Origin: Candidatus Thalassarchaeum sp.
Lineage (GTDB): Archaea; Thermoplasmatota; Poseidoniia; Poseidoniales; Thalassarchaeaceae
Assembly (NCBI GenBank): GCA_022449945.1
Contig: JAKURM010000005.1
Span: 1-51,528, forward strand
Reading direction: 5' to 3'
DNA: 51,528 bases
Program-made: the position numbers and the translations under genes
Shown here: in pieces, positions 6,001 to 41,600 of the stretch
How the letters are laid out: every line of letters begins with the position of its first letter
Numbering within the stretch: position 1 is the first letter of the stretch
Notes under the pieces: generated by a model
What the model saw: the letters and a program-made list of their open reading frames with translations, nothing else
Told to the model about the DNA's origin: nothing
The model's database searches: none

Positions 6001-6951
6001 CTCAATTTCCAGATCCGGGCAAAGGCACAAGAATACATGCCACCTGGTGAGAATACCGTTACGATAAAAATTGAACAGGATCAATCTAGATTCATCAATG
6101 GGGCATCAAGAGATGTCGAAATCCTGGTTATGGTCGAGGTCGACTTCGTGCTCTCTGAACTGGACCTATCCCAAGGCCAGAGAGTAATCAGGGGGACCGT
6201 GAATGCTACTGCAAGAGATACTGGAGAGCCTCTGGAAGGACTATCCATGACTGCCATTCTGCTCAATGGAAGTACATCCCACTTTGCCATGACAAGGTTG
6301 ACAGATTCTGAGGGAGTGTTCGAGTATGAGTTCAAGTCTCTGTCACCCCTGCCACCATTGTCAGATTCTTCTTCGTGGGGCGTCCTAAGCGTACTCTTGG
6401 GTTCTGACTCCGACTACATAGAACCGGGAAGCCTCTCTCTCCTTCCAATCGGCGGCGTTCAGATACAATACGAGGTCGAGCAAAACGGGTCAATATTCGG
6501 TTCTTTTACCTTCGTAGTGACACTGATTCTAGCTCTCGCTGCTGCTGTAGCAGTTGGATTCACAGTATTGTCCAGAAGGAAGAGAGCGGCGATAAAGGAG
6601 ATGGCAGGAATTTTCAGCCAGACCGCTGAGATGCTCGCTTCGGGGGACGAGTATAGGAAGGCAATTTTCGAGTGCTATGAGAGCCTTTGCTCGGTATTGA
6701 CTAGGCGTGGATTCCTAAGGAGGAACTTCGAGACCGTAAGAGAGTTCGAGAATGCCATAAGACTCGCCCTCCCCATTCGCGAGGAATCTCTGGTGGCCCT
6801 AGACAGAATTTTCGAGGAGGCGAGGTACGCCAGTCACGGTATGGGGGACTCTCATAGGGAGAACGCACAGCTTGCCCTTTCCTCGGTCATCCAAGATATT
6901 GAGGAACTCCAAGAAATCCCTGTTCGAGCATTGCAAGAAGCTGAGGCCTAG
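1..6951 (+). CDS. Giant secreted/membrane-anchored protein, 5' truncated by window edge: TSP3-type Ca-binding motif, transglutaminase-like domain, many Ig-like repeats, C-terminal TM helix and DUF4129-like cytoplasmic domain
   Basis: Frame is open from base 1 (QDNPDDDIDPLDTDGDGIPDSVELEIGTDW), so the listed TTG start at 70 is not the true start. TGase-like core GSCDEFASLFAVMLRIAGMPTRKVTGFSGG...TTWVEV...GWVPFEACP; TM FTFVVTLILALAAAVAVGFTVLSRRKR; tail YRKAIFECYESLCSVLTRRGFLRR...EEARYA resembles DUF4129. Confidence 0.85.
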   Translation, partial: QDNPDDDIDPLDTDGDGIPDSVELEIGTDWRDPDTDGGGVPDGEECPPEFWLLDCIGAPSDPFDPTDDLDENALMFTASNTTSGMDPGITHYWRWHTYDSYTGVSWGVNSSLVGYTPIVDDWSTDQGVADQTFWNHSSPLSWEINFDDAGYISPGRELIQPYNVQNFTTWVDFSAGLNFSNYTRDVLVDSSTIESLYVNAPEVILSAEVRENTTAFTGATYGLDLPPEFLGSLEGEGVSTVTQEVLNQSGALSAWDKITAIQDFLTNGNETITFLRNYDGSGRLDGLGSDSDVSYWILNSSHEGSCDEFASLFAVMLRIAGMPTRKVTGFSGGAWDGKALSVYGKDFTTWVEVHLQTNQNQGDLDVGWVPFEACPPMSTVEVFDEKWGPTSVERNTTFSETIWLEGTLVFSGNSTAVDNLTLSMYLVEPEESENIPGSSAISDHLVATTVTDENGSFNLTGLPPSVIRPGFASLVIQTTQKAYVGAQGITFPWQLNVTDDVSISISEPTPINSPMLGIGVNSTIIGQISWASSPNLDPSIVDDLEVILNYSSAVDGEVSLTSSVSGGGYYEFTVPIDETEPLGPINASISFDGWHSIDLNNATPPSYHARPGSLDLEFNITLSPNLTVSLESQGTNNTVLEIGSNIFLNGTVLSRGDSPSTLNGTLILEMRRSDISGPYLQLASWYLNDTSWGSSAGEFSISWPFSPEDVPIPAGIVDVRIQFDADNLNANDQKQFVDGEFGIRSIIQFTYSLSPEPRGIEANVEVLLTDHTGLSFASFEGEYNLDFDGEWVWNEIDPNSPKLGVTWTPAVDMDPGDYSWVLTYNGSTWMAPNSTSDTVRIQGLANATATFGTDWTPRGGTNWISGSARDLVLNTPVTGNNSSVTVLLQVPSDLPATPDGFPAGPDSYTLAVGWIDPSSGTYNLTFGTPSGITSGVYQVLVRLDFNSNAPQGGSYYKTNDPTSTQTGVQSEFVLETEPTAVILVAGEQIVLSTAVTDVEDPSEFIGGVSLDLYFDWGGPQQQILQSTTTGPSGVADFNPIIPSSVAPGFYDVRIHAPDDLVDNLSASNAGRWLGNESITNLTVQVGSLVDIVSIPTQVTALQYFTIEGTVLDSVDSNRSVDGPVGINVFFLDEPEELLIENHTTNSNGSFNVSVPTDTLGNGVIRGDRTVVVSVVNGSTPFYLTGTGDASILVMGVPWFQDSTPFINTIVDRGETATMTARLVEFSNNDAPLSGFTVLARFHDTWLDSQVTAADGSVSFDFQIPHDHPLGLVNVTFFFNGSSDLHPTIDILNTITVRSTASMTIDPISENPMAGDFFNITGNLVSSNGSALTDRNGNPMNPTLTFSIDGESDTFIVTQVSFLPDGTWNAEVRLDLTFPRGVHAISVVFTPEVTYFTSASGLAAFDSRGYSQLSIVSPSDLDPDSRTIRGDSFELNLTIVDNAGDPVPSAALVVEIDGTTVWGGLSNLQGEASASVLARPDRDPGPMLVTVTFSGINGTTGLVGDETWTRVVVLAPTEITIIGVTEPSIAGESITFSGKLVDELGQILREEEVQSGGLVHLSIDGVDVGPTFTSVSNSTNGLWEITYLIPMDMDYGAHSATFDFLGGFSWVDPMGQGDSINPEYYLDSTISLTFNVTQTSQVIISTPPSEVDRSDVALIEGILTDGIGRSLPNRDLSVTVDGQILTVIVADINGSFSALIPISPDMPLGQLLISVEFLGEQFVLPSNSSTVLTVFGPVFIELGDIEPVAVGDTLRIRGTAKDNLDDGWLSSHTIEVFVDGILVGITSTSDNGSWVLPWVVPDTVDVGNHTLSVISPSQGFHRQGSSETSFTVSYHTSISLQIEEHYATRGEQWNFTGRLFESDTGFELGMDSRLVSVTLDGVPIGEVTTEVGGLFSYSLSIPYSMSRGEHNVSFQYGGEFLYLPSETNITAFALSDISIELQPITNSIIRGSTFPSENIMIQGLVREIGGDSTIFENLTLTLTWGESNLPMVVGPWDNPNTLNFQIRAKAQEYMPPGENTVTIKIEQDQSRFINGASRDVEILVMVEVDFVLSELDLSQGQRVIRGTVNATARDTGEPLEGLSMTAILLNGSTSHFAMTRLTDSEGVFEYEFKSLSPLPPLSDSSSWGVLSVLLGSDSDYIEPGSLSLLPIGGVQIQYEVEQNGSIFGSFTFVVTLILALAAAVAVGFTVLSRRKRAAIKEMAGIFSQTAEMLASGDEYRKAIFECYESLCSVLTRRGFLRRNFETVREFENAIRLALPIREESLVALDRIFEEARYASHGMGDSHRENAQLALSSVIQDIEELQEIPVRALQEAEA

Positions 6952-19831: not shown

Positions 19832-19863
19832 TTTCTGCTATGTTTGGACTGCCCCCCAATTCC

Positions 19864-19942: not shown

Positions 19943-22900
19943 ATGGAGACTGAGAGCGATACCACATCTGGGCACAACATTGTGTACGATATTGCCTATC
20001 CAGCGATAGCTACTATTACCCTACTTGGACTTCTTTTTGCCACTTGTATTTTGGAGGGAAGGGACCTCGGTGGCGAATTCATTTTCGATGCCATAGCACT
20101 TCCTCTAGCCATCCTAGTCTCTTCGCTTTCCGGACGATTCACGTCTCTTATTCCAATCGCCTCATCTGGACTCAGGGTTTCTGCGCTCGCATCTGCTTTG
20201 CTGGCCTTTTCGCTTTTGGCAAATATCATCTCCCCTACGAATTTTGACCACTTGTTCGTTACGATGTTCTTCATCACAGGTTTGGTATCGGCAATCCTCG
20301 ACGAATGCAAGAGGTTCGAAGAATCCTCAATTTTCTTCTCTGTAATCATTGGAATGCACATTTCAGTGACATACGCAGCGGGACTGGGGATTTCTACCGG
20401 CACCACATCATCAGAACTACTTAATGTCCAGAGGACCGCAATAGGTACTGCGTTCTTTACATTCTGGCTCGCCTCAATTTCATTAGGCTTCCTTGTTTTG
20501 CTGGCAATCAGAGGGGCACTTCAGGAACGTGGCTCTGGTAAGTTTTTCTCCGGCCTACCTAATTTCTCTGAAAGCAAAACACCAGTGATCTACTCTTCTC
20601 TAGTACTTTTATCATTCATCATTCCGTTGGTTTGGCTGGGAAGGCTTGAGGAACTCTCGGAGTTCTCGGATGGAAAGCATCTTGGTTTTGTCTGGGGTAT
20701 TTTCTCGGCCTTAGTGGTAATCACTCACTCATTCTTCAGGTCCGAGGGTTGGCATGTATTGGGATCCGTCCTAGCAATAAACTGGGTATTGTATACAATT
20801 GGACATCTACATGAGATTGGCAATAACCTGCCCTCACTTTTCTCCGAGGAAGGATTCATTGGTACATTCACATGGTTCTTCCTTGGCTTCTGGTTGAATT
20901 TCTTCGCAATTTTCTTCGCATCTAGGGGTGTTTTTGGAGACATCGCACCAAGACGGGAGAATGGCGCCTTCAGGAACTGGTGGGGAGAAAACTCCTATGC
21001 AGTGTTGGTTGGGTTGGCATTTGTCACAGCACTGGTAGTCAGGACTGCCTGGAACATCATTCCGGCAATGAACGCCCAGGGCACTGGTCATTGGGATTTG
21101 ACAGGAGGTTCTGACCCTTGGTACATGAAGAGGGTCGTCGACTACGTGATCGCAGAAAGGAGCCACCTCATATTCGATCACGATAGGTCATATCCATTGG
21201 GCGGAATAAATCCTCGGCCGCCTCTTTTCTCCTGGTCGCTCGCACTTGGTGGTCTCGCGCTTTCCTGGGTACTCGAGGTTACTCCAGGAGAAGCCGTCTG
21301 GTGGTCAGTCGCGGTATTGCCAGCATTTTATGGGGCTCTAATCGTTTTCCCAATTTCTGGAATAGCCTCGCGTGTACACAGTAGGAATTCCGGCATAATT
21401 GCAGCTTGGTTGATTGCTTTGATGCCGGGCCACATGAGTCGTTCGACCCTTGCAATGGCCGACCACGACTCATTTGCAATGCTATTCCTTGCAATCGCAT
21501 TTTTCTTCTGGATCAAGGCACTCGAGAACCTTGAACACAAGAAGATATTTGATTCAGCTAGCCCAAATCCTCTGTATATCGTTGCAGGGATGAGAGAGAC
21601 ATGGCGTCAGAATCCCGCCCTAATGGCAAATGCAACTATGTCAGGAATAGCATTCTCCGTGATGGCATTAGGTTGGAAGGGATTCGTATATGGGCCAGGG
21701 ATCCTATTCCTTGCATATTCTTTCCAGGTAGCAGTAAATATATTCCGAGGTAGGGACAGCCTCCAATTCACCTCGGCTGCTCTTCAGATGATGCTAACCT
21801 GCATCATTCTGCCAGCACCATTCTATGCATGGCCAGGGATGAACCTTCTTTTGGCCCCAAGCGGTATGCAGCCGATGTTCTACATTCTTGGCTTCACCTT
21901 TGCCGTAGGATGGGTCTCGAGCTCATTCAGAGACAAACCGTGGTTGCTTGTGGTGATTAGCGGCTCTGCCCTTTTCGGCTCAATTCTTGCTGTTCTTTAC
22001 GTGCTACAGGCTGCTGAACTCTACAATGGTTGGGACATCCTCTTCACTGGTGGATTCTACTTCTCAAAGAACAAGATTTTCAGCACAATTGGCGAGGCAC
22101 AGGCTCCGGACAGGGGAGTCCTTTTCGCATCATATGGGCCAATTATTTCTCTTATCGCAATCGGCTGTGCATTCGTATTGCTATGGAGGGGAATTAGGAG
22201 AAACAAGTCAAGCCTGACTCTACTGGGACTATGGGCGATCATTGCGACGTACATGGCTTGGACAGCGGGACGATTCATCATCAACGCGACCCCAGTGATG
22301 GCCATCGCAGGAGGCATTGGAATCTCGATGCTATGGGATAGTGCGAACTTCTCAGCGTTTACCAAGGTCAGGAGGAACTCCGGCATCGGCACTCCAAGAA
22401 CCAGGTTTAGATCCTTATGGCCAGCCACAAAGGCTCGTCCTGGAGTCCCTGCAATGGTACTGGTGATATTGCTGGTGTCCTCCCAACACGCCACATATGG
22501 GATAGACTCAGCCATTCCACGAGGTTCAGAAGATGCATGGGATATGGACGAGGACATCTATAACCTAGCACCAGACATATTTAGACAGGATTTCTTCAAC
22601 CTATTCTCCGTACTAAACAGCGAGAAGTATGCCCCCGGTGGAACACAGGATCTATGGTATATGGGGACGTTTGGCCCGAGCTTCAACCAGGTTGGCTGGA
22701 ATGAGGCGTTCGAATGGCTATCGCAACAGGACTCGGATGTACCATTCAGCGAGAGACCAGCATTCGTGTCATGGTGGGACTATGGTTTCCAAGCCCTTAC
22801 ATCAGGTCAGCACCCAACAGTAGCAGACAACTTCCAGTCAGGCATTCCACAGAGCGGGGCCATGCTGCTGTCTGCCGGACAGGAAGACGTACTTGCGATG

Positions 22901-25900
22901 TTCATTGCAACCCTTGCTCAAGCTGATAGGAAACAAAATGGAGGGGACTTGGGACAAGAATTCGATACCGTACTTCTATCTCATATGAGTCCCGAGCAAA
23001 GGGATGAGTTCGAGGCGATTCTGAGTACAAACACTAGAGAATTCGTACTTCAAAGGGCCATGGGGGTTTCTGCGGTATATGGTGACACCGAACTCTTGAG
23101 TGGCTATTCCCTAGGTTCTGACGGAATTCCCCAATCGCTGACATCGTGGAGGGTTATTGACGAGGGAGAACAGTACGGCGAGTTAGTGTTCAATGAGTCA
23201 GAGGCCATGGCCATGTTTGACGAGGCACGCGGCTCCTCATCACAATCCGAAATCAGAGATAGCCCAGACCACTATGATTTCGGAGGATATCGATATACTT
23301 CCGACCTAATCAATGACTACGAAGACGTTTCTTCTGACCTGCATCGGATCAATGCCAAGTTTGCGATGATGAAGGCATTCCTGACTGTCGCCTTCGATCT
23401 GTCTGAATTGGTATCACTTTACGCCGGAATCTCTTCCATTGACTCATATGAGGTATCGGACTACGAATCTTCCGGAACCACCAGTAGGAATCATGAGATT
23501 AGGTATTTTGCGGTGGATAACAAGCTGTATCCCCTAGGTGGACTATACTATGGCGACTACCAGAGCTACCACCGAGGTCAAACTACTGGGATTTTCCACG
23601 CCCCAACTCGCCTTTCGGGACTCGACATAGGGACCTACATTTCTTCCACATACGAAACCACGAGAAACAACGACGTTGCTCGGATGACTCAGGCCGAGTA
23701 CGAGGAGCAGTATTTGTCGGATATCAGAGACCAGGCCGCAGGAGTGATAACTGGGAACGAAGTGATTCGTATGACCGATATCGACTACCAGCACCTGCCC
23801 GCATTCTTTGACACGATGATTGCGAGGACATACGTGGGCTATGGATCTTCAACACTTGGTCTCTCGGGACCAGCGGAGACTCCTTCTTCCTGGTTGGCTC
23901 CGCAGTACATCTCCGGAGCGCCCAATAGCTACCTGCAAGGGGCCATGGCACTTCCCGGGGCCATGATGAACCACTTCGTCATTTCAAACTGGTACGATGG
24001 GACCGATGGCGGACATTGCGAACTAAACTCTACAGGAGATAAGATCCAGCAGTCATGCGGAACCGAGTTCGACTCAAACAGACTCGTCAAGATTCTGAAG
24101 TATTACAGCGGTGCAACCATTGAGGGAACAGTTTCACTCGATGGTGTTGGGGTGATTCCTAACGCACGCATACTGATCGAACGCGATGCATTCAGTGGCG
24201 AAGAGGAAGCAGACGAGAACGGAACGGTTACCGATAGGGACTCTAGGACATTCTGGATCCCAATTGGAAGCACCCAAGCCGATGAGAACGGGCATTTCTC
24301 ATTCACAGTCCCAGCAGGCAAGATCAAGATTTCCGCATTCTCAGGAGAACCGGATTTGGACGCCGGAAGAGCGACTATCCAGATGTCCGGATTGGGCAGC
24401 TCCATGTACGAGCTTTGGGACGAGAAAAGCATGAACAGGAATGTAAATCCCGTTACGGGAATATTGGGCAACGTTTACGGCTCTACCTGGCTATCCGAGA
24501 CAATAGTAAACATCTCGGGTGAGGACGGACACAGCAACGGCCAATCGCAGATTGACGCATCAATCACCGTAAACCCCTCTACTGCATCAGGAGTTCTCAC
24601 CTGGTCGGGTGAATTGGATTTCGATGGAGAACCTGTTTTCGAGGCCAGCGTCTTACTGACCCCCAAGTCAGAAGAAGTAGCCATCCCCCCCTATTCAGCA
24701 CAAACCTCCGATGGCATGATGGAGGGAGAATCACTAGAGTTCAGCGGGATCGGAGAGGTCCAATTCACTGGACACGGCACCGTTGTTACTGAGGGAGTAG
24801 CCTCAGTTTCTGCATTCACTGGCACCCACACGCAGTCGGTTTTCGACAACCACAGCGTCACTGGTGAGGGGCAGTTCGATGGTCGGGGGACTCTTGAGGG
24901 CTCCATTACTGATGACAGTCCCACTCCAGAATGCACCGATTCAATGGTACCAGCTGGGAGTAATGTTTGTTACCTGGAGGATGACAAATACATGCTAAAC
25001 GGCACAGTAAATGCTACTGGAAAATTCACATCCGAGGGAAAAAGCAAGTTCTCGAGGTCCCTTATCCAGGCGACTTTCATTGGTGCTGGGACCTTCGAAA
25101 CTGACACGTCGGAGGAACTGACTACATACGGGACCATCAACGGAACTGGGACATTCTCTGGCTCAGGGATTTTCAGCGGCCCAATGGTGCAACCGGGCAG
25201 CTTCCACATAGTTGATGCACTTCCGGGCCAATACTCGATTTCCGTTGACTTTGGAAACGGTACAATCGTAAATCTCTCGACACTTTTCACAATTCCACAT
25301 ACCCCAGTTTCGGGTCATATACCGATTTCGGTTTCGGGTGGAGCTATGCGGGGGTCCGTTTCTCTGCCCTCAGGCAGAGTGCTAGATACTCCCGTATTCA
25401 TCTACCCAATATCAGACTCTGCTGAAAACGCCTCAGTCGAGTGTGCAGCAACCGCATCACCGCCGTGCATGGTCACTCCTAATCAGGAAGGATATTTCGA
25501 AGTCGGCCCAATTGTCCCTGGCTCATACGTCTTTGAAGTGGATGTAGACGACGACGGCTTCCCTGAGATTTCATCCACCTACGCATTCGGGCCAGATGAG
25601 GCTATCATGGCCGAATTCCCGTCCGTGGTACCTTCGATGTCGGATATTTCTTTCTCACTAGAGGACTCCGGCTCCATCGTAAGGGATTTGGAAATTATAC
25701 TCAGGCCGGAGAACCAATCCCTATCGACCGTTATCGCTGTTTTCGACAACGATTCAGGGACCTACTATGCAGAGTTATCCGAAGGAAATTGGATTTTGAA
25801 CTACACCCTTGGTGACGAAAAGCAGATTTGGCAACTTATCGAAGTTGGCAGTTCAGATATCACCGGTGAAACTTACCAATTCAGAGGTAGCCAGATTGTT

Positions 25901-28900
25901 CAAGGCAGCATCCATATGCCACAAAATAAGGACAATCCGGATCAATCGCCCCAAACGGTCCCCTTCCAGGGCCTAACTTTCCAATGGGATGGATTCGTTC
26001 TCTCAACAGCCACAGACGAAGAAGGTAACTTCAGCGTCATTCTCCCCCAGGATGCAATGATTGACGTCACAGTAGAGCGAATGATGGGGGTCGAGGGTTT
26101 CCTCTCAAATGGTAGCAGATTCCAGGTCATTGAGGATATGGGGAGGCTAGAAATCGAACTTGTTGATTCTATAGTCGTATTTGGATCTGTTAGCCTGAAC
26201 AGAGAGGATAATACCTACAACTCCGGATACTTGGGTTGGGAACCCGTGGACGTTATCGCTAGCAATAATGATGGCGAAATCACAGGATTCTGGAAGGAGG
26301 AGGTAAACCCGATGGGACTCTTCGAGATGCTGCTCCCCCTGGGGAATTGGACATTCATTCTCGATGCCGGAGAGCTGGGAACCGGCCCCGCAGTACAGAA
26401 GGAGGTCAACACCACTGTGAATGTAGAACTACTGCTTCTCGTCGATAACAGCACTGTTCGGATAGATCTGTTCATCGATGATGCAATGGATGACAACGCA
26501 TCCAATGGGACCTTGGTCCCCTATCCTTTCGAAATAATGCCACTCACATCAAACGGTTCCGGTTACTCTGTAGCCATTGATGGGGACGAGTGGTACTCCG
26601 AAGGCAGGGCAGAGGTCTCCCTTGAGCCAGGTAAGTACCGAATTGTGATAGACCGGGCCAACGCCTCCGCTGATGAGCCGTTCGATACCCTATATGACGT
26701 CAACGAAGTTTTCGATGTGGGCATGGATTCCTCAGTGATTGTCGAAAGGACGGTAGGATTCGAGCCCCTTTGGCTCGCAAATATCACATTCAGAAATGAG
26801 AGTGGCGTGCATCTCGTAAATCATGAGGTAATGTTCCACAATTTGGAAAGTGGCTGGATGCAGACTCATAAGACAGACGAAAACGGCCTGATTGTCGAAT
26901 ACATGCCCGAGGGCGAATGGATAGTCATTGTCGATGAATTCGAGACGTACCCAGGCGTGTACGAGGGATTAAGAGAAGCAATTTCTGTTTCCCAGGAAAC
27001 CGCAGCTATCCGGGAAAACTTCCAGACCTCCCAACTAGCTACGGTTTCGGTGTTCCTATCCTCCGACTACGTAGGCGAGGCAGTCGAGGAAATGTATCTG
27101 AAGTTCACCTCCCAAGAAGGATTGGGATACTTCACAGAAGCGGCCATTGGATTCGATCAGCCGATTGTGATTAGGACCACTCCAGGTCTTTGGAACGTTG
27201 AGATGAACCAGACTAATCAGGAAGGTGTTAGGATTTTCGTCGAAAACACATCATTGATAGATGGTGGTGTTGTTGTTTCCGACAACGTCTCATCATTCCT
27301 AACCGTACAGAGACTCGTCGAGCTCAGCGGGAAGGTTTACTGGGACCTAAATGACGATGGTACTCCTGGGTTCAATGAAGGATTAGAAAACGCCACAGTG
27401 ACCATTGGCTCCGAAGATCCGGAATCTCCTGCAATATCTCACGAACTCACAACAGGGCAAAGCGGAGAATGGTCAATTTTCCTACCTTCAATGAGTGCGT
27501 GGAACATCAGCGTGGACAAGGAAGAATACGGTAACTCTTCATCGTCTGTCTCACTACAGCAGTCTTCAGTAGTGGAAAATATCGAAATTGATGCAGGCGA
27601 AGTAGGAATATCCGGGACCGTCTCTTACGTCGACGACACATGCGTAACAAATGGCGAATGGGAAGTTGTGCTGATGCCCTCACATGGGATATCTCGCGAT
27701 AGAGTAGTTGCTGAAAAGACGGGCAACGCCTCATCTGGTTGGCCCGGTGGTTGGACTGCATCATTGGAACCAGGCAGTTGGATAGCATATGCCTCAACTA
27801 CAACCCAGTCTCAGTGCCAGTATTTGGTATCCATAGAGCCAATCTCAGTCGACGTTGATGGTGGTTTCGTGGAATCTGAACTCTCAATAGGTGGAAACCT
27901 GTTACTAGATACCCAGTGGTTAGATTACGAGGGTGTCGAACACGAACTAACCGAAATCGAGGAATACGATCTAGAGATCAACGTGGGAATGGGCATATCT
28001 TGGTCTGAGCAGCTGGGTGATGATGGAATTCTGAGGATTCTATTGCCAACCGGAAACATTGGGACTTCTAGCGAATTCATTCTGAGCGAGAACGGCAGGA
28101 ACGTGTCATACACTGGAGGCCAGGGAGTGAGTATTCGCGCATCACAAGACACCCCAGTTACCACACTTAGCATCGAACGAGTTTCGAATCAGGATATTGG
28201 ACTCGTCGTCTCTCCCTCTGGAATCGTCCAGGTAGATCTCAAGGACCCCGATTGTGAGTCGGATTGCGACTTCCAATCGGCGGAATTTTCAATATACGTT
28301 TCTTACGAGGGACACAATCCATTCGATTCATACGACGTCTCGGCCACTGTTCCTGGAATGGACGGGAACTATTGGGATGTCGAATTCCAGAACACCAGTG
28401 ATCCAGAGGACTGGCATGACTCTACTTCAATTGCTATGGGTCTAGACAACGAGACAAATTTGGAGCTCACAATCCGAGTCGTTCCGGCCAATAGGACATT
28501 GGCACACCATTTCCCTAGTGGGCACACAGTACTCGTAAAGTTCGCTACCCAACAGGGATATTCTACGCAAGCAGAGATGAGTGTCCAGATTCCAAGATAT
28601 TCTGGTTTAGAACTCAGTGATGAGTTCGCGGACACCGTATATTTCCAGTCAGAGCAGAAGTTGATAAATTTCCAGATACCCTATGCTAATCTGGGCAACA
28701 GTGATGAGATGCTGACCTTCCAGTTTGATCCTCCAGAGGGATGGGAAGTATCCGGCCCACTAATTCAACCAACGGCCCCGTTCTCGATGGGAACCTCTTC
28801 GATTACTTTGGTATACTCTGGCTCCGAAGAGTACCCGAGCGATTACTCGGAAATCCTGAAGTTCAACGTCTCCGACTCGATAAACAACACATACGAATTC

Positions 28901-29437
28901 CAGATCTCACTAGTTTTGGACTCCCCCTCTCTGTCTTTGGTAGGCGAAACAATATCCCTCCTCGGTGGTGGAACTGCAAGATACGGCTACATGGAAACCT
29001 ACGTTGTCAACGTTTCAAATGCTGGAAACGTCGAGGCTACAGGAGTTACTCTTCATGCCATGCTCTGTAGCGATATCCAGGATGACGATGATGACGGTAA
29101 CTGTGATAAATTCGAGAATGTAAACTCAAGTGCCGTTAGCGATGTGCCAAGCATGGGAGAAGCTGCATTCTACATCAATATGGATTTCACAGAATACGAC
29201 GGCTCCGAGATATTCTATATCCAGTTCGAAATCGGAGACGTCGAGAAGACGGGCAAACTGAGGGCATGTAACGATGCCGAAGGAAAGACATTCTGTGTTA
29301 GGGAGGCACAGCTAGGGTCCAGCTCGGACGACAATTCCTATCTACAATACATGTGGCTTGTGCTTGCAGCAATGCTCGTTTCACTTCTTTTGTACCTGAC
29401 CAGGCGTCCAGGAAGAAGGGTTAGCGCCCCGTTCTAA
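19943..29437 (+). CDS. aglB: AglB/STT3-type oligosaccharyltransferase fused to a giant C-terminal extension of CarboxypepD_reg/Ig-like repeats ending in a TM helix
   Basis: GHWDLTGGSDPWYMKRVVDY, ADHDSFAML, STIGEAQAP (TIxE-like), SWWDYGFQ (WWDYG) motifs; extension with IEGTVSLDGVGVIPNARILIERD-type domains; C-terminal YMWLVLAAMLVSLLLYLTRRPGRR. ATG 19943 preferred over TTG 19844. Confidence 0.9.
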   Translation: METESDTTSGHNIVYDIAYPAIATITLLGLLFATCILEGRDLGGEFIFDAIALPLAILVSSLSGRFTSLIPIASSGLRVSALASALLAFSLLANIISPTNFDHLFVTMFFITGLVSAILDECKRFEESSIFFSVIIGMHISVTYAAGLGISTGTTSSELLNVQRTAIGTAFFTFWLASISLGFLVLLAIRGALQERGSGKFFSGLPNFSESKTPVIYSSLVLLSFIIPLVWLGRLEELSEFSDGKHLGFVWGIFSALVVITHSFFRSEGWHVLGSVLAINWVLYTIGHLHEIGNNLPSLFSEEGFIGTFTWFFLGFWLNFFAIFFASRGVFGDIAPRRENGAFRNWWGENSYAVLVGLAFVTALVVRTAWNIIPAMNAQGTGHWDLTGGSDPWYMKRVVDYVIAERSHLIFDHDRSYPLGGINPRPPLFSWSLALGGLALSWVLEVTPGEAVWWSVAVLPAFYGALIVFPISGIASRVHSRNSGIIAAWLIALMPGHMSRSTLAMADHDSFAMLFLAIAFFFWIKALENLEHKKIFDSASPNPLYIVAGMRETWRQNPALMANATMSGIAFSVMALGWKGFVYGPGILFLAYSFQVAVNIFRGRDSLQFTSAALQMMLTCIILPAPFYAWPGMNLLLAPSGMQPMFYILGFTFAVGWVSSSFRDKPWLLVVISGSALFGSILAVLYVLQAAELYNGWDILFTGGFYFSKNKIFSTIGEAQAPDRGVLFASYGPIISLIAIGCAFVLLWRGIRRNKSSLTLLGLWAIIATYMAWTAGRFIINATPVMAIAGGIGISMLWDSANFSAFTKVRRNSGIGTPRTRFRSLWPATKARPGVPAMVLVILLVSSQHATYGIDSAIPRGSEDAWDMDEDIYNLAPDIFRQDFFNLFSVLNSEKYAPGGTQDLWYMGTFGPSFNQVGWNEAFEWLSQQDSDVPFSERPAFVSWWDYGFQALTSGQHPTVADNFQSGIPQSGAMLLSAGQEDVLAMFIATLAQADRKQNGGDLGQEFDTVLLSHMSPEQRDEFEAILSTNTREFVLQRAMGVSAVYGDTELLSGYSLGSDGIPQSLTSWRVIDEGEQYGELVFNESEAMAMFDEARGSSSQSEIRDSPDHYDFGGYRYTSDLINDYEDVSSDLHRINAKFAMMKAFLTVAFDLSELVSLYAGISSIDSYEVSDYESSGTTSRNHEIRYFAVDNKLYPLGGLYYGDYQSYHRGQTTGIFHAPTRLSGLDIGTYISSTYETTRNNDVARMTQAEYEEQYLSDIRDQAAGVITGNEVIRMTDIDYQHLPAFFDTMIARTYVGYGSSTLGLSGPAETPSSWLAPQYISGAPNSYLQGAMALPGAMMNHFVISNWYDGTDGGHCELNSTGDKIQQSCGTEFDSNRLVKILKYYSGATIEGTVSLDGVGVIPNARILIERDAFSGEEEADENGTVTDRDSRTFWIPIGSTQADENGHFSFTVPAGKIKISAFSGEPDLDAGRATIQMSGLGSSMYELWDEKSMNRNVNPVTGILGNVYGSTWLSETIVNISGEDGHSNGQSQIDASITVNPSTASGVLTWSGELDFDGEPVFEASVLLTPKSEEVAIPPYSAQTSDGMMEGESLEFSGIGEVQFTGHGTVVTEGVASVSAFTGTHTQSVFDNHSVTGEGQFDGRGTLEGSITDDSPTPECTDSMVPAGSNVCYLEDDKYMLNGTVNATGKFTSEGKSKFSRSLIQATFIGAGTFETDTSEELTTYGTINGTGTFSGSGIFSGPMVQPGSFHIVDALPGQYSISVDFGNGTIVNLSTLFTIPHTPVSGHIPISVSGGAMRGSVSLPSGRVLDTPVFIYPISDSAENASVECAATASPPCMVTPNQEGYFEVGPIVPGSYVFEVDVDDDGFPEISSTYAFGPDEAIMAEFPSVVPSMSDISFSLEDSGSIVRDLEIILRPENQSLSTVIAVFDNDSGTYYAELSEGNWILNYTLGDEKQIWQLIEVGSSDITGETYQFRGSQIVQGSIHMPQNKDNPDQSPQTVPFQGLTFQWDGFVLSTATDEEGNFSVILPQDAMIDVTVERMMGVEGFLSNGSRFQVIEDMGRLEIELVDSIVVFGSVSLNREDNTYNSGYLGWEPVDVIASNNDGEITGFWKEEVNPMGLFEMLLPLGNWTFILDAGELGTGPAVQKEVNTTVNVELLLLVDNSTVRIDLFIDDAMDDNASNGTLVPYPFEIMPLTSNGSGYSVAIDGDEWYSEGRAEVSLEPGKYRIVIDRANASADEPFDTLYDVNEVFDVGMDSSVIVERTVGFEPLWLANITFRNESGVHLVNHEVMFHNLESGWMQTHKTDENGLIVEYMPEGEWIVIVDEFETYPGVYEGLREAISVSQETAAIRENFQTSQLATVSVFLSSDYVGEAVEEMYLKFTSQEGLGYFTEAAIGFDQPIVIRTTPGLWNVEMNQTNQEGVRIFVENTSLIDGGVVVSDNVSSFLTVQRLVELSGKVYWDLNDDGTPGFNEGLENATVTIGSEDPESPAISHELTTGQSGEWSIFLPSMSAWNISVDKEEYGNSSSSVSLQQSSVVENIEIDAGEVGISGTVSYVDDTCVTNGEWEVVLMPSHGISRDRVVAEKTGNASSGWPGGWTASLEPGSWIAYASTTTQSQCQYLVSIEPISVDVDGGFVESELSIGGNLLLDTQWLDYEGVEHELTEIEEYDLEINVGMGISWSEQLGDDGILRILLPTGNIGTSSEFILSENGRNVSYTGGQGVSIRASQDTPVTTLSIERVSNQDIGLVVSPSGIVQVDLKDPDCESDCDFQSAEFSIYVSYEGHNPFDSYDVSATVPGMDGNYWDVEFQNTSDPEDWHDSTSIAMGLDNETNLELTIRVVPANRTLAHHFPSGHTVLVKFATQQGYSTQAEMSVQIPRYSGLELSDEFADTVYFQSEQKLINFQIPYANLGNSDEMLTFQFDPPEGWEVSGPLIQPTAPFSMGTSSITLVYSGSEEYPSDYSEILKFNVSDSINNTYEFQISLVLDSPSLSLVGETISLLGGGTARYGYMETYVVNVSNAGNVEATGVTLHAMLCSDIQDDDDDGNCDKFENVNSSAVSDVPSMGEAAFYINMDFTEYDGSEIFYIQFEIGDVEKTGKLRACNDAEGKTFCVREAQLGSSSDDNSYLQYMWLVLAAMLVSLLLYLTRRPGRRVSAPF

Positions 29438-29469: not shown

Positions 29470-30711
29470 ATGAATGGTATAAATCACTTGGAACTCATGC
29501 CCGAGCCAGAGGAACCAAACCTACTGACCGCAGTAGACGTTGACGCTCCAGGGTATCCCGGCGAAGCCTATGGAATTTCGGATGAGGAAGCCCGAGAACT
29601 TCGCTGGCCATTCGGCCCGATAATGAGATTCCTCTGGCCATGGGGTGCAGTTGGTTTCTCGACTGTCATCGTCTCATTCATTCTCCTTTACCCATCAATC
29701 GCCCCCTTGCTGGGAGAGGTGCTTCCAGATTCTGAGTGGGCATTTGAGGATAGTGGCATTAGGAAAATTCAGGATAACGGGAACTTTGGTGAAGGAACCA
29801 GGGTTTGCATTGTAGACACGGGAATTGATATCTACCATCCCGAATTCGAACGAATCAATCTAGTTGGATTTCGGGACTTCTATGCAGACAATAGCAATGA
29901 AACCCGTGATATTGGATACGAAAGTCATGGCACACTGATGGCCGGACTTCTAGTAGCAAATGAGTCATTCATTGGCGCGGCCCCAGGAGTTTCACTATCG
30001 GTCGCAATCGCTTTGGGGCCTACTGGGAAGTCATCCAACGAGAGGATGGTTTCACAGGCAATAAGGTGGTGCAGAATTTCCCAGAATTCAGACATCATCT
30101 CTCTTAGCCTGGGGAGTGAGCCGGGTTCAGGGGTATCTTCGTCTTCCGAAACGATTGAGGCGGTTAACGAAGCACTCAATGAGGGAATCTTCGTTGTAGC
30201 CGCTGCTGGAAACTCAGATCCCGAATCTAATAACTCGGATGTTTCTACGCCCGCTAGTATCGAGGGCGTAATCTCAGTTGGTGCCCATGGAAAGGATGGC
30301 AATCCCTGGAAGGACAGCGCTACTGGTTCTGAAATGGACCCTTTCACTGGAGAGGAACGGGTTTTCCCCAACCAGAAGCCAGAGATCCTTGCACCGGGGG
30401 TCCTTCTATGGTCTTGCATATCAAGCGAATACGAACCCCCCTATGCATATTCGTCGGGTACCAGCGACTCGACGGTACTGGTCACAGGTGCCCTAGCATT
30501 GATTCTCAATGAGTATGGGGGCGTTATCGCTGGGGAAAACGGGAGGATAGACTCGCATGAGATGTCACTCGTTAAGGTCGCATTGGCAAAATCTGCACGA
30601 GACGCGCCCAACCAAATTTCTTCGCATGACTCTAAGATTGGATACGGACTTCTGGACGCTGAAGAATGGGCTAACCAAGTCGCCCTTGAGTTCGGAGTCG
30701 AGGAACAATAA
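29470..30711 (+). CDS. Membrane-anchored subtilisin-like serine protease (S8)
   Basis: VCIVDTGIDIYHPEF (Asp), YESHGTLMAGLL (His), VVAAAGNSD, YSSGTSDSTVLVTGALALI (Ser); N-terminal single TM WGAVGFSTVIVSFILLYPSIAP. Confidence 0.88.
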   Translation: MNGINHLELMPEPEEPNLLTAVDVDAPGYPGEAYGISDEEARELRWPFGPIMRFLWPWGAVGFSTVIVSFILLYPSIAPLLGEVLPDSEWAFEDSGIRKIQDNGNFGEGTRVCIVDTGIDIYHPEFERINLVGFRDFYADNSNETRDIGYESHGTLMAGLLVANESFIGAAPGVSLSVAIALGPTGKSSNERMVSQAIRWCRISQNSDIISLSLGSEPGSGVSSSSETIEAVNEALNEGIFVVAAAGNSDPESNNSDVSTPASIEGVISVGAHGKDGNPWKDSATGSEMDPFTGEERVFPNQKPEILAPGVLLWSCISSEYEPPYAYSSGTSDSTVLVTGALALILNEYGGVIAGENGRIDSHEMSLVKVALAKSARDAPNQISSHDSKIGYGLLDAEEWANQVALEFGVEEQ

Positions 30712-30779: not shown

Positions 30780-33700
30780 ATGTTCATGGCGGCGTATCGC
30801 AAGCGAAGCTCTGTCTCCTTATCCTGTCTTTTCTTGCTAAGCATAGTGGTTTCCCTGGCACTCCCAGCAGACACGGTTTTAGCATCCAATGAGACCACAG
30901 AGGGCACAATTACCGGTACTGAGACATGGGCAGGAACCCATACATTAACCGGTGACGTTACCATAGCACCCGGTGCGAAACTTATCATTCATGCAGGCTC
31001 TACTGTAATCTTCCCCAATGGGACGCACATTGACGTCAGAGGTAGTCTATGTGCTGGCGCAACATCTTGTGGAAGCCCAACTAATGCAGGCCCAACGATG
31101 AAAATCACACTTAGGTGGAACGAACCAGCAAACGCTAGCGCTACTGGGGAATGCTATGGGATGAGCTACAGTAACCAAGAGATATGGATTGACGATCCAT
31201 CTTGCAGTGAGGGAATCTTGATGAGGAGTTCAATTGACTTGTCTGAGACCGAACTCAGGTACGTTACATTCGATGGGGCCTGGGGGGTCCCCCACTACAT
31301 TTCTGCAGTCAGCGAGTTCAGATACGGGGCCTTGGTTCTCGACGGCGCCAGTCCCGTGCTAACCGAATTGGACTTCACCGACATCAATACAAGCAGCGTA
31401 CTAACTACAAATCTGGCCCAACCCACATTCAATGGCGGAAACTTCGTAGTGGGGAATGACGAGAGTAGGAGCATAGTTGGGTCTGCCATACAGGTTTATT
31501 CCTCGGGCTCATCTGTTAGCCCCTTCGTACTCTCCGACATCACACTCACAGGAACGGGCAATGGGTGCCAGGGCAATGCAGGAGGTAGGCCGACTATCTG
31601 GGCGGAGAAGTCATTCATAGAGATAGAAAATGCCGAAATCTCATCAGGAGACTTCGGGATAGGACTCTGGTCTTCGGCAGGGAGTGTAACAAACTCAGAA
31701 GTAAACGTGAATTGCAACGGTATAGACATCAACGGAAAGAAATCAATCGGTTCCACATTCTTCGGATTCGAGATTTCCGGGAATCAGATAACAACTCAAC
31801 AGAGAAGCGGAATCTACGCTTCTAGTGGAGCTTATGCAACCCTGACAAACAACGATATTCAGGGCGCTTCTGAGTCATCAGGAATAGTTGTCTATTCCAG
31901 TGACCTCTTCATCCACAACAACAACATCGGACCAATAGGCGGGTACAACGGACTTTGGCTAGGTGGATCATTCGACGTGATCGCGGAGAACAATACCATT
32001 TTCGAAACAGCAGGGACACCAATAGTCGCGGGTTGGTACACCAACTCCCTAGCTTCGGCATCAAGGGTTTTCCTGGCCAACAACACCATCTCATACGACG
32101 GAACCGGTGCATGCAGTAGCAACACTTACTGGGGCGGCGATTTTACCTGCCCGGTACTCCATGCCTTCATGACGGGAGTGACCATGTATGACAATGTAAT
32201 CGACGCTGGAGGAACTGCAGATGGCATCAGGTCTGTCGGCTCGCTTCTAGATATCCAAAGGAACACTTTCACAATCCCGAAAACGGGAGCCGTGATTAGA
32301 AATTTCGACTCGGGCTATTCGAATTCTCAGCAGTACGGCTCCTTGGCCTTCTTCTCTAAGAACACCTGGGACGGAGTCGAAGTAACTTACAACATCACAA
32401 AGAGCTCCGTAACGGCGCAGTCCGAGTACATCCCATCCCCACCATCAGGAGAATCCCCAGTAAAACTGTCATGGCCAGACCACGAGGCATGGCCAGACAA
32501 TGGGTTCCAGGGGGCAATCCTGCCAACTCCTGTGAAGGAATGCGAGAATTGCGACAACATGACTCCGAGAAACTTCCCCCTCGGAGTAAGCATGGACAAC
32601 AATTCGACTGTCTTCACATTCGCAAACCTGACGAATCTAGATCTTTCAAAGGTAAAGATCGCAACTCAACCGACTCATTATGCGGTACAGGTCAGCAGGG
32701 CTGAGCTGGTCAGATTCCAGACTCTGATCTACGGCGAGAGGGTCAACGATGCATTAGTCATCGTCGAGGACGCCGTTGGAAATGACTTGTATACAGTGAA
32801 AACGGGTGCAGATGGCTTCACCCCCTGGATTGCCCTGCCATCCAATTTCCACCTTGACTTCAGAGGCCTAGGAGGGGGGAACAATCCTGACGGATTTGCC
32901 GACGACGAGTATGAGGACTCTTGCTCGGATGGAATTGATAATGACGGTGATCTTCTGGTAGACACTGATGACGACAGTTGTGACTACTCTGCCGGAACTA
33001 GGGAGATGTCACTTTACCGTTACACAGCATACAAGTTTGGATTCGGTTACTCAAGAGAAGAGTTTACCCTTCAAGAGAGTACTCATCAGGAGACAACCAG
33101 CCTGGTCAATCAGGCACCCACCGTTAAGGTCACGCAAGAGGATGGGCACTCATTCCGAAGGATTGTGAATATCACTGGAAGCGCCCATGATGGGCAGCTG
33201 GCGAACAGTTACCCTTCCGATGCCCTTGCTCAGTGGGACCAAGGAGGGTATGTCCATTCGGTTCAGGTGAAGGATCCATTCACTGGATCCTGGGAGGATG
33301 CCGGCCTGGCAGTTGACACCAGTGCTATGCAGGAGGGTCAAGTGACAAGATTCGATCGCCCATTCAGTTCCTGGTATTATCAGATAGACCTCAGTGCAAT
33401 TGCCGGCGAGGGCGACTATACATTCGAGTTCCGAGCCTTCGACGGAATCGAATACAGCTCAGTGATAACTCGAACTATCAAACTCAATGCCCAACCGCCA
33501 ACGGTTTTCGTATCATCGCCGAGCTCATTTACCTCTCATGACGAGGGAACGGTTCACTTCGTAGGCTCGGCACAGGATCCATACGGCTGCCCTAACGAAT
33601 GCAACAAGGACATTGGCCTAATATTCATGCGAATCGAAGGTCCCAATTTCGAGGTCACTACACCGGTGGAATCCAACGAGGACGGTAGTTGGGACTGGTA

Positions 33701-35066
33701 CTGGGACTTCACTACAAGACCCAGGGAGCTTGCCACCTATACCTTCACAATTTGGGCCTCAGACTCCGATTTCTGCAATGGAGTGATTGACGAATGCCAG
33801 ACAGTCGTTCTAACCCTCAGTATAGACAATTCCAACAGTGAGCCTACTATCAGTGTTAACGAACCCTATTCCGGAACTCGGATTTCAAGTTCTGCTACGA
33901 CTCTAATCAAGGGTGTTGCCAGAGACTTTGATGGTGATGTCACCAGAGTGGACGTAGAGGTGGAGGACGTTTCAAATGGTTTTATTACGGTCCAAACATC
34001 CAGCTCCAACGAGTTCTCCGAGGAAGGTGAATGGGAGATTGTTTGGGACACGACTCAACTTAGGCACGATGCGGAATATCTTGTGAGGATTAGATCCTAC
34101 GATGGATTGGACTTCAGTAACTGGGTAGAGTTGTTGATTACTGCGGACAACCCGCCCAATGCAGACAACAAGAAGCCAGTTTTCGAATCGACCGGATGGA
34201 TTAGCGAGTTGACTCTGTATTGTGATACTGAGTCTAACTCGGTTGACAGGTGCACAACCGTGGAAATCGATCTTCGTCAATTCTTCAGCGACGAGGACAA
34301 CGATATTGAATTCATCTCTGTCTACAACGACACCTCTACTGGAACTGACGACCGATTCCCACTAGTGATCAGCATCGGAGGGGATGGTATAGCCAGATAT
34401 GACCCGGCCGATATGCTGTTCTACGATGAAAACATAGAAACTTGGACTCTGAATAACGTGATTTTCATTGCAACCGACTCATGGGCTTCGAAGGCTAACT
34501 CAGAACCGGTTACATTCCGCGTGGTCCCTCTGCAGTTTGATATCCAAGAGCCAGAAAGGGAATGGGTTGAGGGGGACGGGATTGCAATATATTCCGGTAC
34601 CGGGCTACCCGGAAAGCAGGTCTCAGTACAAATTGGTGGGACACCTGTCAACTATACTGTCGTCTTAGAAGACGGAACCTGGGAGCTTGGTATTCCAGCA
34701 TCGAGGATCAAGGGCGAATCTTCTACTCCCCAATTCAGTTATGGCGGACAAACAACAGCCGTCAATCCTATCTTCAACGGAGAACCGGATATTGGGGGGA
34801 CGAGCTGGAAATTTGTTGGAGGAATAGCCGTAATAGCACTACTTGCCTTGGTAGCTCTTGCCTTTGGCACCGGCATAATTGGTTTGGAGATTGAGGATGA
34901 GGGTGAATTTAGCAAATCCCCCGTATCTTTGTCAGGAATTATCGAAGGAGACGCAGGCACCGCTACTTCATCTGAATCGAGCATGGAGAGGTTTGACGAC
35001 CACCCAGGGTGGCTATGGGATCCTAATACCGAGGAATGGGTTCCCGATCCAGAATACCAGGAGTAG
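30780..35066 (+). CDS. Giant surface protein: signal peptide, right-handed beta-helix (NosD-like), MopE-like Cys/Asp motif, Ig-like domains, TM helix, short WxWDPxxEEW cytoplasmic tail
   Basis: Signal peptide RKRSSVSLSCLFLLSIVVSLALPADTVLA; NNNIGPIGGYNGLWLGGSFDVIAENNTIFETAG beta-helix rungs; CSDGIDNDGDLLVDTDDDSC; TM FVGGIAVIALLALVALAFGTGIIGL; tail HPGWLWDPNTEEWVPDPEYQE. Confidence 0.82.
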   Translation: MFMAAYRKRSSVSLSCLFLLSIVVSLALPADTVLASNETTEGTITGTETWAGTHTLTGDVTIAPGAKLIIHAGSTVIFPNGTHIDVRGSLCAGATSCGSPTNAGPTMKITLRWNEPANASATGECYGMSYSNQEIWIDDPSCSEGILMRSSIDLSETELRYVTFDGAWGVPHYISAVSEFRYGALVLDGASPVLTELDFTDINTSSVLTTNLAQPTFNGGNFVVGNDESRSIVGSAIQVYSSGSSVSPFVLSDITLTGTGNGCQGNAGGRPTIWAEKSFIEIENAEISSGDFGIGLWSSAGSVTNSEVNVNCNGIDINGKKSIGSTFFGFEISGNQITTQQRSGIYASSGAYATLTNNDIQGASESSGIVVYSSDLFIHNNNIGPIGGYNGLWLGGSFDVIAENNTIFETAGTPIVAGWYTNSLASASRVFLANNTISYDGTGACSSNTYWGGDFTCPVLHAFMTGVTMYDNVIDAGGTADGIRSVGSLLDIQRNTFTIPKTGAVIRNFDSGYSNSQQYGSLAFFSKNTWDGVEVTYNITKSSVTAQSEYIPSPPSGESPVKLSWPDHEAWPDNGFQGAILPTPVKECENCDNMTPRNFPLGVSMDNNSTVFTFANLTNLDLSKVKIATQPTHYAVQVSRAELVRFQTLIYGERVNDALVIVEDAVGNDLYTVKTGADGFTPWIALPSNFHLDFRGLGGGNNPDGFADDEYEDSCSDGIDNDGDLLVDTDDDSCDYSAGTREMSLYRYTAYKFGFGYSREEFTLQESTHQETTSLVNQAPTVKVTQEDGHSFRRIVNITGSAHDGQLANSYPSDALAQWDQGGYVHSVQVKDPFTGSWEDAGLAVDTSAMQEGQVTRFDRPFSSWYYQIDLSAIAGEGDYTFEFRAFDGIEYSSVITRTIKLNAQPPTVFVSSPSSFTSHDEGTVHFVGSAQDPYGCPNECNKDIGLIFMRIEGPNFEVTTPVESNEDGSWDWYWDFTTRPRELATYTFTIWASDSDFCNGVIDECQTVVLTLSIDNSNSEPTISVNEPYSGTRISSSATTLIKGVARDFDGDVTRVDVEVEDVSNGFITVQTSSSNEFSEEGEWEIVWDTTQLRHDAEYLVRIRSYDGLDFSNWVELLITADNPPNADNKKPVFESTGWISELTLYCDTESNSVDRCTTVEIDLRQFFSDEDNDIEFISVYNDTSTGTDDRFPLVISIGGDGIARYDPADMLFYDENIETWTLNNVIFIATDSWASKANSEPVTFRVVPLQFDIQEPEREWVEGDGIAIYSGTGLPGKQVSVQIGGTPVNYTVVLEDGTWELGIPASRIKGESSTPQFSYGGQTTAVNPIFNGEPDIGGTSWKFVGGIAVIALLALVALAFGTGIIGLEIEDEGEFSKSPVSLSGIIEGDAGTATSSESSMERFDDHPGWLWDPNTEEWVPDPEYQE

Positions 35067-38453: not shown

Positions 38454-38630
38454 ACTCCAACCGTCCCGAACATTACAACCTTTGAACCAATCCATAATGT
38501 TGTCTGGAATCTACACATTTTCCCCTCACTGGCATTTTGCCGGGAACACACATCGGAGCCTTTGTCCGAACGACGCTCCATCATCATGATAAATCACTCA
38601 AGTGGAGAAAATAGTACGTGGGTGGGTGAA

Positions 38631-41600
38631 ATGAGGCGCAAGCAATCTGCCCTAGTCATTTCTTTCCTGATTCTTTCTAGCCTAGCCTTCGTTTCCCAGA
38701 CTAGACCACAGTCTCCCGTGTCGTCTACAGACCCCACACTTGCAGAAGGCAGCGAATCCCCAGTAACTGACCAGGATGGCGATTTGATTCCAGATCTATA
38801 TGAGGTCATTTTTGGAGAAGAACTACTGGTTGACAACCCGATGATCGATATGACAATTGCTGGATTGGACCCTTCAGATTCTACTGATAATACTTCTGAC
38901 CATGATAGAGACGGACTATCGGCCCTTCAGGAATATTGTTGGCCCTATACCATAGATATGTGCTTCGAGGAAAGGAATAGCTTGACTGGCAAGTCTCCAG
39001 AAGAGTCTTCTTCCGGACTCAGAGAGTATCTAGATCCAAGAAATTCAGATACAGATGGAGATGGGCTTCCAGATGGGTATGAGGTACACATGTGCACTGA
39101 GGGCGGATTATACAAGACTAATCCAAATGATCCTCTAAACCCCAATAATTACTGGGAGTGCAGGTATTTCGATCCCCTCAACGCGATCGATTTAGTCTCC
39201 GACTTCGATAGATGCGAAGCCGACTTCAGCTGGGGATGTGGTGACGGGTTCGATTTCAATAGCGATGGATTGATTGATCAAGGAGAGCGCTTCACAAACA
39301 CCGAAGAGTATCTCTACGGTTCACCGGGTGATTGGGTCACTGAAAGAGACGGACTTTGGTGCGTGGGCGAGATATCCGGGCTTGTCCCAGACTCGTGTCA
39401 GATTGAGTTCCAAAGGCCCACGGGAGACTCAGGCTGGCTAGGTACAGATCCCAGATATAGTGACTCGGACTATTATTCATGGGAAGAATTAGTCCCCAAG
39501 GGGCTGGAAATTCTTGGTGATGGAATTCCAGATGGCTGGGAATTCCATGACGGACTAAACCCACTGAATGCCTCCGATTCAATAGTCGACTCCGACACTG
39601 ACGGATGGGATATCGATGGCGATGGATACATTACTCCTGACATCACACCTGGAACTGCACTTTGGGGTGAGTCTTTTAGCAACTATGAGGAGTACTCGAT
39701 TGATTATGATGAAAATACTGGAGTAATTCCAGGGCTTAGAGGGGTAAAGGCCACTGGTCAGAATGAACCGATTTTGAGCTATGATCATTCCACTGCAATT
39801 AGCATTGTAGACCCAGCCATCCATTCTTTAATTTCTGATCAGGCAAGGGAGAGGCTAATCATAGGCTCAAAATACGGCATTACAGTTCTTGATCCATTCA
39901 GAGGAACAACCTCAGAATTCAATTTTGCTCCGGGTTTCGAATCATTGACTATGGTCAGGCAATTCATAGGTGACTCCGACATTCTACTGGTGGGTTCGAA
40001 TATTGGCATACATCTGGTGATGTTGGAAAATGGACTACCCGTTATGGGCTCCATACAATCTTCTGAAATTGGTAAAGTTTCTGATATCATTCCCCTCAAG
40101 ACTTCATCAGATAATCCTGATTTTATTATGATGGGAGGCAGTAATGCATGGAAGATTTCACTGCAAAACGCCCTTTCGGACTCGTCAAACCCAATGGATA
40201 TCACAAGCATCGAATCTCTTACCGGCCTGCTTGTAGAATCTAACGCCACGGCAGTTTCATCGGCACATATCGATATGCCCGGGCGTTCACCGATGCTAAT
40301 GATCGGGACCGATGTCGGATTAATTGCTTGGAACACTACGGATGGATCTGAGTCAATGGGGTTGCCTTGGTGGATTTTCAATAGGGCGAACTCGGAGGAC
40401 TTCGTAAGTCCTAATATTTTGGACTCGTCCAAGTCTTCATCAGTCAATGTCTTTGAGGTCGTATCAAATTCTGATGGGACCAATGATGTTTGGATGGGAA
40501 CAGGGGGCGGCCTACATCTGGTCGATTTAGACCTTATAATTTCTCAACCCGAGAGGGCATTTCAGAACGAGAGGATGCTTAACATAGATGGACTTCTAAC
40601 CGGAGCTAACGACGTTCACTCAGTTATGCAACTAGAAGGGATGGTTGCTATCGGTTCGAGAGATGGGACCTGGTGCTTGGAGGGGGGCCCAAGTGGAATT
40701 CTTGGTTTATACCAAAATCAGACAGAGATACCCGGCCTAGTTTCTTCCATGGTCACATTGGAAAATGAGGGTGAGCCATGGTTGTTTGTGGGAGTATCTC
40801 CTGGGAGATACATGAACATTGCACCAATGAACCCTCTCTCGCCAGACTCTGACCTGGATGGCATGCCCGACGGGTGGGAATTCGCCTACGGTCTTGATCC
40901 AACCGATCCATTCGATGCTACCAGGGATTTGGATGCCGACGGAGTCTCAATAGAGTGGGGCGGGCAGATTCAGTACAATAGGCTCTGGAGCAATCTAGAT
41001 GAATACCGCTTTGTCTCTACCTCCGAAGATGGATTCAATGGGACCGACCCCAGAAATCTCGACTCTGATGGTGATGGACTTACTGACGGCGAGGAGTACT
41101 GGGGTTGGTTTGTCGACTCAACCAATTTTGACTGCCATTACTTGAACGGAGAGTATGCGTGCGATGAAGATTTGGGATTTTCTTCTAGGGAGGTCCATCT
41201 TGGAGGGTGGTTAGGTACTGGCTCGGGAGGAGGCAGTGATACTCCTACAGACCCCACAAATCCAGATTCTGACGGCGACGGGATGCCAGATGGATGGGAA
41301 ATTCGTCATAGGAGGTGGCTGGGTGACGTCTATACCGGCGGAAATGAGTGGACACTAGACCCTGGTGATCCTAGTGATGCCAACAAAGATGCGGACGGTG
41401 ACGGCCTAACTAATATTTGTGAATACCAGTGGGAGACTAGGCGAACAAATGCCATTAGATACGGACTAATCTCCCATGGCGAGAACTCCGAGTATGCAAA
41501 AGAATGGATACCCACCGATCCAAATTCAGTTGACTCAGATGGAGACTCCCTGCCAGATGGTTGGGAGGCCCGATACTCCTGCCATTGGCCTGCCGAGAAT

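Follow-up and report, generated by a model that had tools for sequence, protein, structure and literature searches.

The window analysed here comprises 51,528 nucleotides (positions 1 to 51,528, forward strand) of contig JAKURM010000005.1 from Candidatus Thalassarchaeum sp., assembly GCA_022449945.1. The genome has 1.34 Mb in 112 contigs; among named genomes, its closest relatives are MAGs and single-cell genomes of Thalassarchaeaceae / Marine Group II. Archaea of the order Poseidoniales (Marine Group II) occur widely in the surface ocean and are uncultivated, and we know of no description of their cell envelope. The window encodes an AglB oligosaccharyltransferase (OST) of 3,164 aa, whose frame runs from its ATG to its stop codon without interruption. 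A TTG at position 19844 is a possible upstream start of this frame. The gene order purD, aglB, S8 subtilase and NosD-like surface protein is kept through Poseidoniales where the flanks are present, with few exceptions, and it was not found in the other Thermoplasmatota families tested. The subtilase carries motifs of the catalytic type and a single N-terminal transmembrane (TM) helix, so its protease domain would face the compartment of the C-terminal arm of AglB described below. The NosD/beta-helix surface protein (30780-35066) has about 1,400-1,510 aa in 17 genomes, and the coefficient of variation (CV) of its length in these genomes is 2.3%, against 0.8% for AglB. Elsewhere, the window encodes a sequon-rich giant surface protein with a transglutaminase core and DUF4129 (70-6951), which has open frames of about 3,000 aa in several relatives from both Poseidoniales families; the in-frame TGAs of its homologues appear to be ordinary terminal stops. 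Furthermore, an ORF of 1,928 aa (38562-44348) has a weak TSP3-type repeat match and otherwise no Pfam match.

The catalytic core of the protein belongs to the Pfam family STT3 (PF02516), which it matches with 49.7 bits (E = 5e-13; curated cut-off 24.5). It also matches TIGR04154 (archaeal STT3, archaeosortase-A-associated) with 160 bits (E = 8.5e-47), below the curated cut-off of 450 bits, and is related to this family without being a member. The region matched by Pfam STT3, by TIGR04154 and by the solved STT3/AglB chains is the core, aa ~355 to ~980; the chains found by phmmer are 3waj/5gmy and 3vgp. The four catalytic motifs named in the initial annotation were all located in the ORF, with GSDPWY at aa 389, DHDSFA at aa 507, STIGEAQ at aa 714 and WWDYG at aa 944. 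The set, consisting of the EL1 acidic residue, the metal-site DxD/DHD, the STxGE loop and WWDYG, is complete, and the roles of these residues are as described (PMC7226087). GSDPWY and WWDYG are kept in all 37 full-length AglB copies that were aligned. The protein is thus confirmed as an AglB/STT3 OST which, as read from its sequence, would transfer lipid-linked glycan to Asn-X-Ser/Thr.

Table 1 Features of the giant AglB and its downstream neighbour in the window.
Feature	Residues (aa)	Position	Strand	Basis
Giant AglB oligosaccharyltransferase, single ORF	3,164 in total	19943..29437	+	ORF translation, STT3 matches
N-terminal extension, 9-10 predicted TM helices	1-353	19943..21001	+	Hydropathy, hhalign
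STT3/AglB catalytic membrane domain	354-800	21002..22342	+	GSDPWY, DHDSFA, STIGEAQ
AglB soluble catalytic domain	801-1390	22343..24112	+	WWDYG at 22772-22786
Junction beta domain, probably AglB's own peripheral domain	1391-1545	24113..24577	+	Model of low confidence
Glycine-patterned beta region	1546-1744	24578..25174	+	Alignment, model
About ten tandem ~95-aa CarboxypepD_reg/prealbumin-like domains	1745-2705	25175..28057	+	Pfam, model, self-comparison
C-terminal Ig-like domains (NPCBM_assoc/CARDB/DUF11-like)	2706-3130	28058..29332	+	Pfam, model
C-terminal transmembrane helix	3134-3152	29342..29398	+	Hydropathy, model
Basic C-terminal tail (TRRPGRRVSAPF region)		29399..29434	+	Recurs in many relatives
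S8 subtilase, next gene, one N-terminal TM, conserved position (context)		29470..30711	+	Gene order, sequence

The chain continues beyond the core into a C-terminal arm of about 1,600-1,770 aa, which is all-beta and is followed by a TM helix with a basic tail. The initial annotation had counted an extension of ~1,750 aa. The long arm stands, and about 150 aa of this extension, which form the junction domain, probably belong to AglB itself; structure prediction of the junction returned a beta domain at low model confidence. The glycine-patterned region that follows shows higher conservation between the families than other parts of the arm do. Comparison of the arm profile with itself gives a repeat period of ~95 aa over the tandem domains. 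CarboxypepD_reg was detected by Pfam in 26 of the 26 Poseidoniales arms scanned, and weaker matches include NPCBM_assoc, CARDB and DUF11 types. AlphaFold models built on a shallow alignment of 16 sequences show an all-beta arm that ends in a helix and reaches pLDDT 70-90 in parts; their pTM of only 0.34-0.35 is too low for global shape or contacts. With both arm models, Foldseek found only generic strings of Ig-like, pilin and macroglobulin domains at low TM-scores. The hydropathy scan gives one strong TM segment at the C-terminal helix and none from aa ~800 to 3130. The CarboxypepD_reg/Ig-like nature of the extension and its second membrane anchor, both proposed initially, are borne out by these results.

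The arm has 38 sequons where 15 are expected, a 2.5-fold enrichment, and there is no enrichment in the N-terminal module or in the soluble OST domain. Of the sequon columns in the 37 AglB sequences, eleven are retained by 60% or more of the sequences and three by 36. An equal enrichment is found in the transglutaminase-type giant of the window and is absent from two other surface-type proteins. The enrichment suggests that the arm itself may be glycosylated. At aa ~2770 (alignment A3), the window copy lacks an acidic insertion rich in DxDxDG, TSP3-like and possibly calcium-binding, that is present in the consensus of close relatives.

A second addition, overlooked in the initial annotation, precedes the core. 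The first ~353 aa show nine hydropathy peaks and perhaps form ten helices. Between the two Poseidoniales families this module is homologous (hhalign, E = 3e-42); Pfam gives no match to it. Outside Poseidoniales, the comparison covered two AglBs, L063 and L076, which have ~280 residues ahead of the first catalytic motif; these residues are unlike the Poseidoniales module, and hhalign gave no match between them. The module has so far been seen only in Poseidoniales, given these two outside N-termini, and it would probably supply an extra membrane docking surface.

The giant protein is found across the order. In an even draw of 146 Poseidoniales genomes, 141 have an STT3 match, one apiece, including every genus sampled, and about 104 AglB open frames of at least 2,900 aa were counted by eye. 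Thus, the search for homologues of more than 2,500 aa, which had been proposed along with the question of a clade-wide fusion, was answered in the affirmative. Where the contig is long enough, almost every independent locus, those of three single-cell genomes included, has AglB as one frame of about 3,150-3,335 residues from stop to stop. The 37 full-length copies, drawn from both families, have 3,124-3,310 aa with a length CV of 1.7%, and their arms are colinear down to ~20% identity. When these copies are aligned to the window AglB, each arm segment is covered by 78-100%, mostly by more than 90%, at identities of 10-39% to the other family. For five close pairs, dN/dS (Nei-Gojobori) ranges from 0.02 to 0.09 for the core (aa 351-1390) and from 0.03 to 0.24 for the arm; the arm is therefore under purifying selection in the AglB frame. 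Among the papers searched, we found no report of a giant AglB, of the N-terminal module or of the arm.

For the phylum survey, 297 genomes were drawn and 54 used in a follow-up, and some of the shorter lengths reflect contig ends. Many other Thermoplasmatota families have AglBs that measure 1,830-2,740 aa and possess a C-terminal TM, so the contrast drawn initially with typical archaeal AglBs of 600-1,100 aa is misplaced for this phylum, in which lengths of 1,800-2,740 aa are common. AglB totals ~3,200 aa in families f1 and f2. Its open frames have 2,083-2,100 aa in f24, 2,079-2,128 in most of f27, 2,190-2,269 in most of f6, 2,337-2,374 in f3 (2,367-2,374 in its genus g23), 2,370-2,380 in f7, about 2,520-2,560 in most of f11 and 1,831-2,002 in most of f17. 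Short AglBs are found in f16 (about 1,290-1,430 aa), f5 (1,180-1,220) and f15/f23 (930-1,290). The other-family giants share the OST, the CarboxypepD_reg/Ig-like arm and the C-terminal TM with those of Poseidoniales, but their arm is shorter. We aligned the Poseidoniales profile to single AglBs of other families with hhalign. From aa ~360 to ~3,150, it aligns end to end with L063, L067, L068, L069 and L072, extending through the C-terminal TM, and most of the length is aligned for several further ones. The f24 and f16 proteins align well solely over the core, and their arms give weak repeat-type matches. Because the domains are repeats, their exact correspondence is uncertain; the end-to-end alignment nevertheless places the origin of the arm before Poseidoniales. 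The C-terminal TM with its basic tail also recurs through Thermoplasmatota AglBs. In two other families (L071 and L075), the AglB arm ends in a PGF-CTERM-like segment (PGF, a hydrophobic stretch and an arginine tail). PGF-CTERM is a type of signal processed by archaeosortase A, and these ends raise the question of whether those arms are cut and lipid-anchored.

Retention of the arm throughout the order and widely in the phylum suggests that it is a working part of the OST machine rather than an accidental fusion. From what the sequences offer, an acceptor-handling arm or an envelope scaffold is plausible. Our preferred reading, to which we give an even chance, is that the sole detected N-glycosylation OST of the cell carries an accessory scaffold fused in cis, which acts beside the active site. 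By topology rules, the soluble domain of AglB would lie outside the cell, and the arm would therefore be outside as well. It would extend from the soluble domain as some 14-18 beta-sandwich domains in a row and return to the membrane with its C-terminal TM. Held at the membrane at both ends, the arm could form an arch or a curtain beside the active site. Its most likely roles would be to organise the OST with the Sec exit site and to guide or hold newly exported acceptor proteins, such that one chain may do the work of separate lumenal subunits in the eukaryotic OST and translocon. Some Thermoplasmatota families make do with AglBs of 930-1,430 aa, which counts against this accessory scaffold, as does the fact that the NosD-like neighbour is also fairly constant in length.

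The main rival to the accessory scaffold is an envelope spacer. Here the arm would be a pillar or tether that sets the distance of a surface layer or glycan coat, and it would be joined to the OST for placement and not for catalysis. The arm length is characteristic of each family in f1/f2, f24, most of f27 and genus g23 of f3, as would suit a spacer, but the value of length constancy as proof of a ruler is weakened, because the NosD-like neighbour is also fairly constant. The fold matches, strings of Ig-like or pilin-type domains, also agree with a spacer. However, a pillar would hardly be expected to attach to the membrane by both its ends, and no cell-wall-binding or S-layer domain was recognised in the arm. 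Moreover, the long AglBs of f17 belong to cells that are perhaps wall-less and Thermoplasma-like, which is a guess. On balance, we find a spacer possible, though on the unlikely side.

The suggestion that the arm, tethered to the OST, serves as an adhesin or in interactions draws on the frequent occurrence of CarboxypepD_reg, CnaB and Ig-like domains in adhesins and on Foldseek matches that include adhesins as well as pilins. Variation in repeat number or length, as in a variable-repeat adhesin, was looked for in the 37 copies, and the arms proved colinear and constant. With repeat number, length and domain order invariant over two families, a conserved second anchor that brings both arm ends to the membrane, purifying selection throughout and an STT3 match in every sampled genus, this option of the initial annotation gained no support and is quite improbable.

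Shorter AglB frames also bear on whether the two parts form one gene. In the 18 that were fetched, the frames examined end at contig ends, at N runs or at single breaks in varied places, with breaks located at aa ~677, ~1,021, ~1,600 and ~2,690, and no recurrent break was found among them at the OST/arm junction, where a stop or frameshift would have spoken against the initial annotation. In G002, the only single-contig genome, AglB breaks at aa ~1,600, and the two resulting frames overlap and jointly span the protein. That aglB was merely joined to a downstream gene for a surface protein in assembly or annotation, as the broken frames of G002 and a few MAGs might suggest, is refuted at the DNA level and has next to no probability, because the breaks lie away from any common site, dozens of independent assemblies, single-cell genomes included, are intact, and AglB with its arm is conserved clade-wide and colinear in other families too. 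AglB and its arm are one gene, as argued from DNA sequence, in agreement with the single giant polypeptide claimed at the outset; a later cut of the translated chain would be compatible with this argument.

The only N-glycosylation enzyme detected in Poseidoniales is thus three to four times as large as the structurally solved AglBs, and it carries two lineage-scale additions, the N-terminal module and the arm. Should the arm act in cis as a scaffold of OST and translocon, the single-chain OSTs of this phylum would reveal what the additional lumenal subunits contribute to OST and translocon in eukaryotes, and cultured Thermoplasmatota relatives could make such a role testable.

Structures are available for AglB of Archaeoglobus fulgidus (PDB 3WAJ/5GMY), which has the catalytic motifs, the STT3 membrane domain and the WWDYG soluble domain in common with the window AglB. 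The full-length chains in these entries have 875 aa. The window AglB adds the 350-aa N-terminal TM module, an extra beta arm of ~1,700 aa and the C-terminal TM.

In architecture, the arm resembles eukaryotic NOMO, a string of prealbumin/CarboxypepD-like domains on the lumenal side of the translocon with one TM; the likeness, tandem prealbumin-like domains followed by a C-terminal TM, is one of architecture only. A profile of 15 other-family arms searched against the PDB matches NOMO2 (9c7v) at 2e-33, followed by SdrD at 3.8e-9, and for the Poseidoniales arm profile NOMO2 is the sole match at E <= 0.1 (6e-7). The Pfam family NOMO_5th matches 13 of the 15 other-family arms (E <= 0.1) as against 3 of 14 control CarboxypepD_reg proteins from the same genomes (15.9, 23.7 and 36.5 bits). 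It exceeds the 27-bit cut-off in four of the six other-family arms listed singly, reaching 70.7 bits, and is weak in Poseidoniales (2 of 26 arms). The CarboxypepD_reg scores of the controls often exceed those of the arms. EMC7 and NOMO1-like_9th, considered as signs of kinship with ER complexes, were discarded as generic, since the controls match them equally. The transglutaminase giant, used as a further control, has no NOMO match but is not a CarboxypepD_reg-rich string. The likeness is enriched in the arms yet partly generic to CarboxypepD_reg strings. We keep kinship as a lead only, because one control matches NOMO2 by phmmer (9.6e-7), the L073 arm searched alone has no match, NOMO2 included, and in a six-frame search NOMO_5th reaches only about 1e-4, in three AglB frames and nowhere else. 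Shared ancestry of the arm and NOMO, with archaeal OSTs carrying a NOMO-like translocon-side scaffold in cis, seems to us improbable. If true, a component held to be absent from prokaryotes would have an archaeal relative joined to the OST; the statement that prokaryotes lack BOS components (PMC9630114) stays uncontradicted by our data. Furthermore, eukaryotic Stt3 has been placed with proteoarchaea (PMC4973528), a placement that speaks against NOMO having come directly from Thermoplasmatota. As part of the BOS complex of the ER multipass translocon, NOMO is a separate subunit bound to nicalin and TMEM147, whereas the AglB arm is fused to STT3.

We found no sequence match of the giant AglB to Ost1, Wbp1 or Swp1, the subunits that surround the conserved STT3 of the multi-subunit eukaryotic OST with additional lumenal beta domains. 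There, these domains reside on separate subunits, while the giant AglB is one polypeptide.
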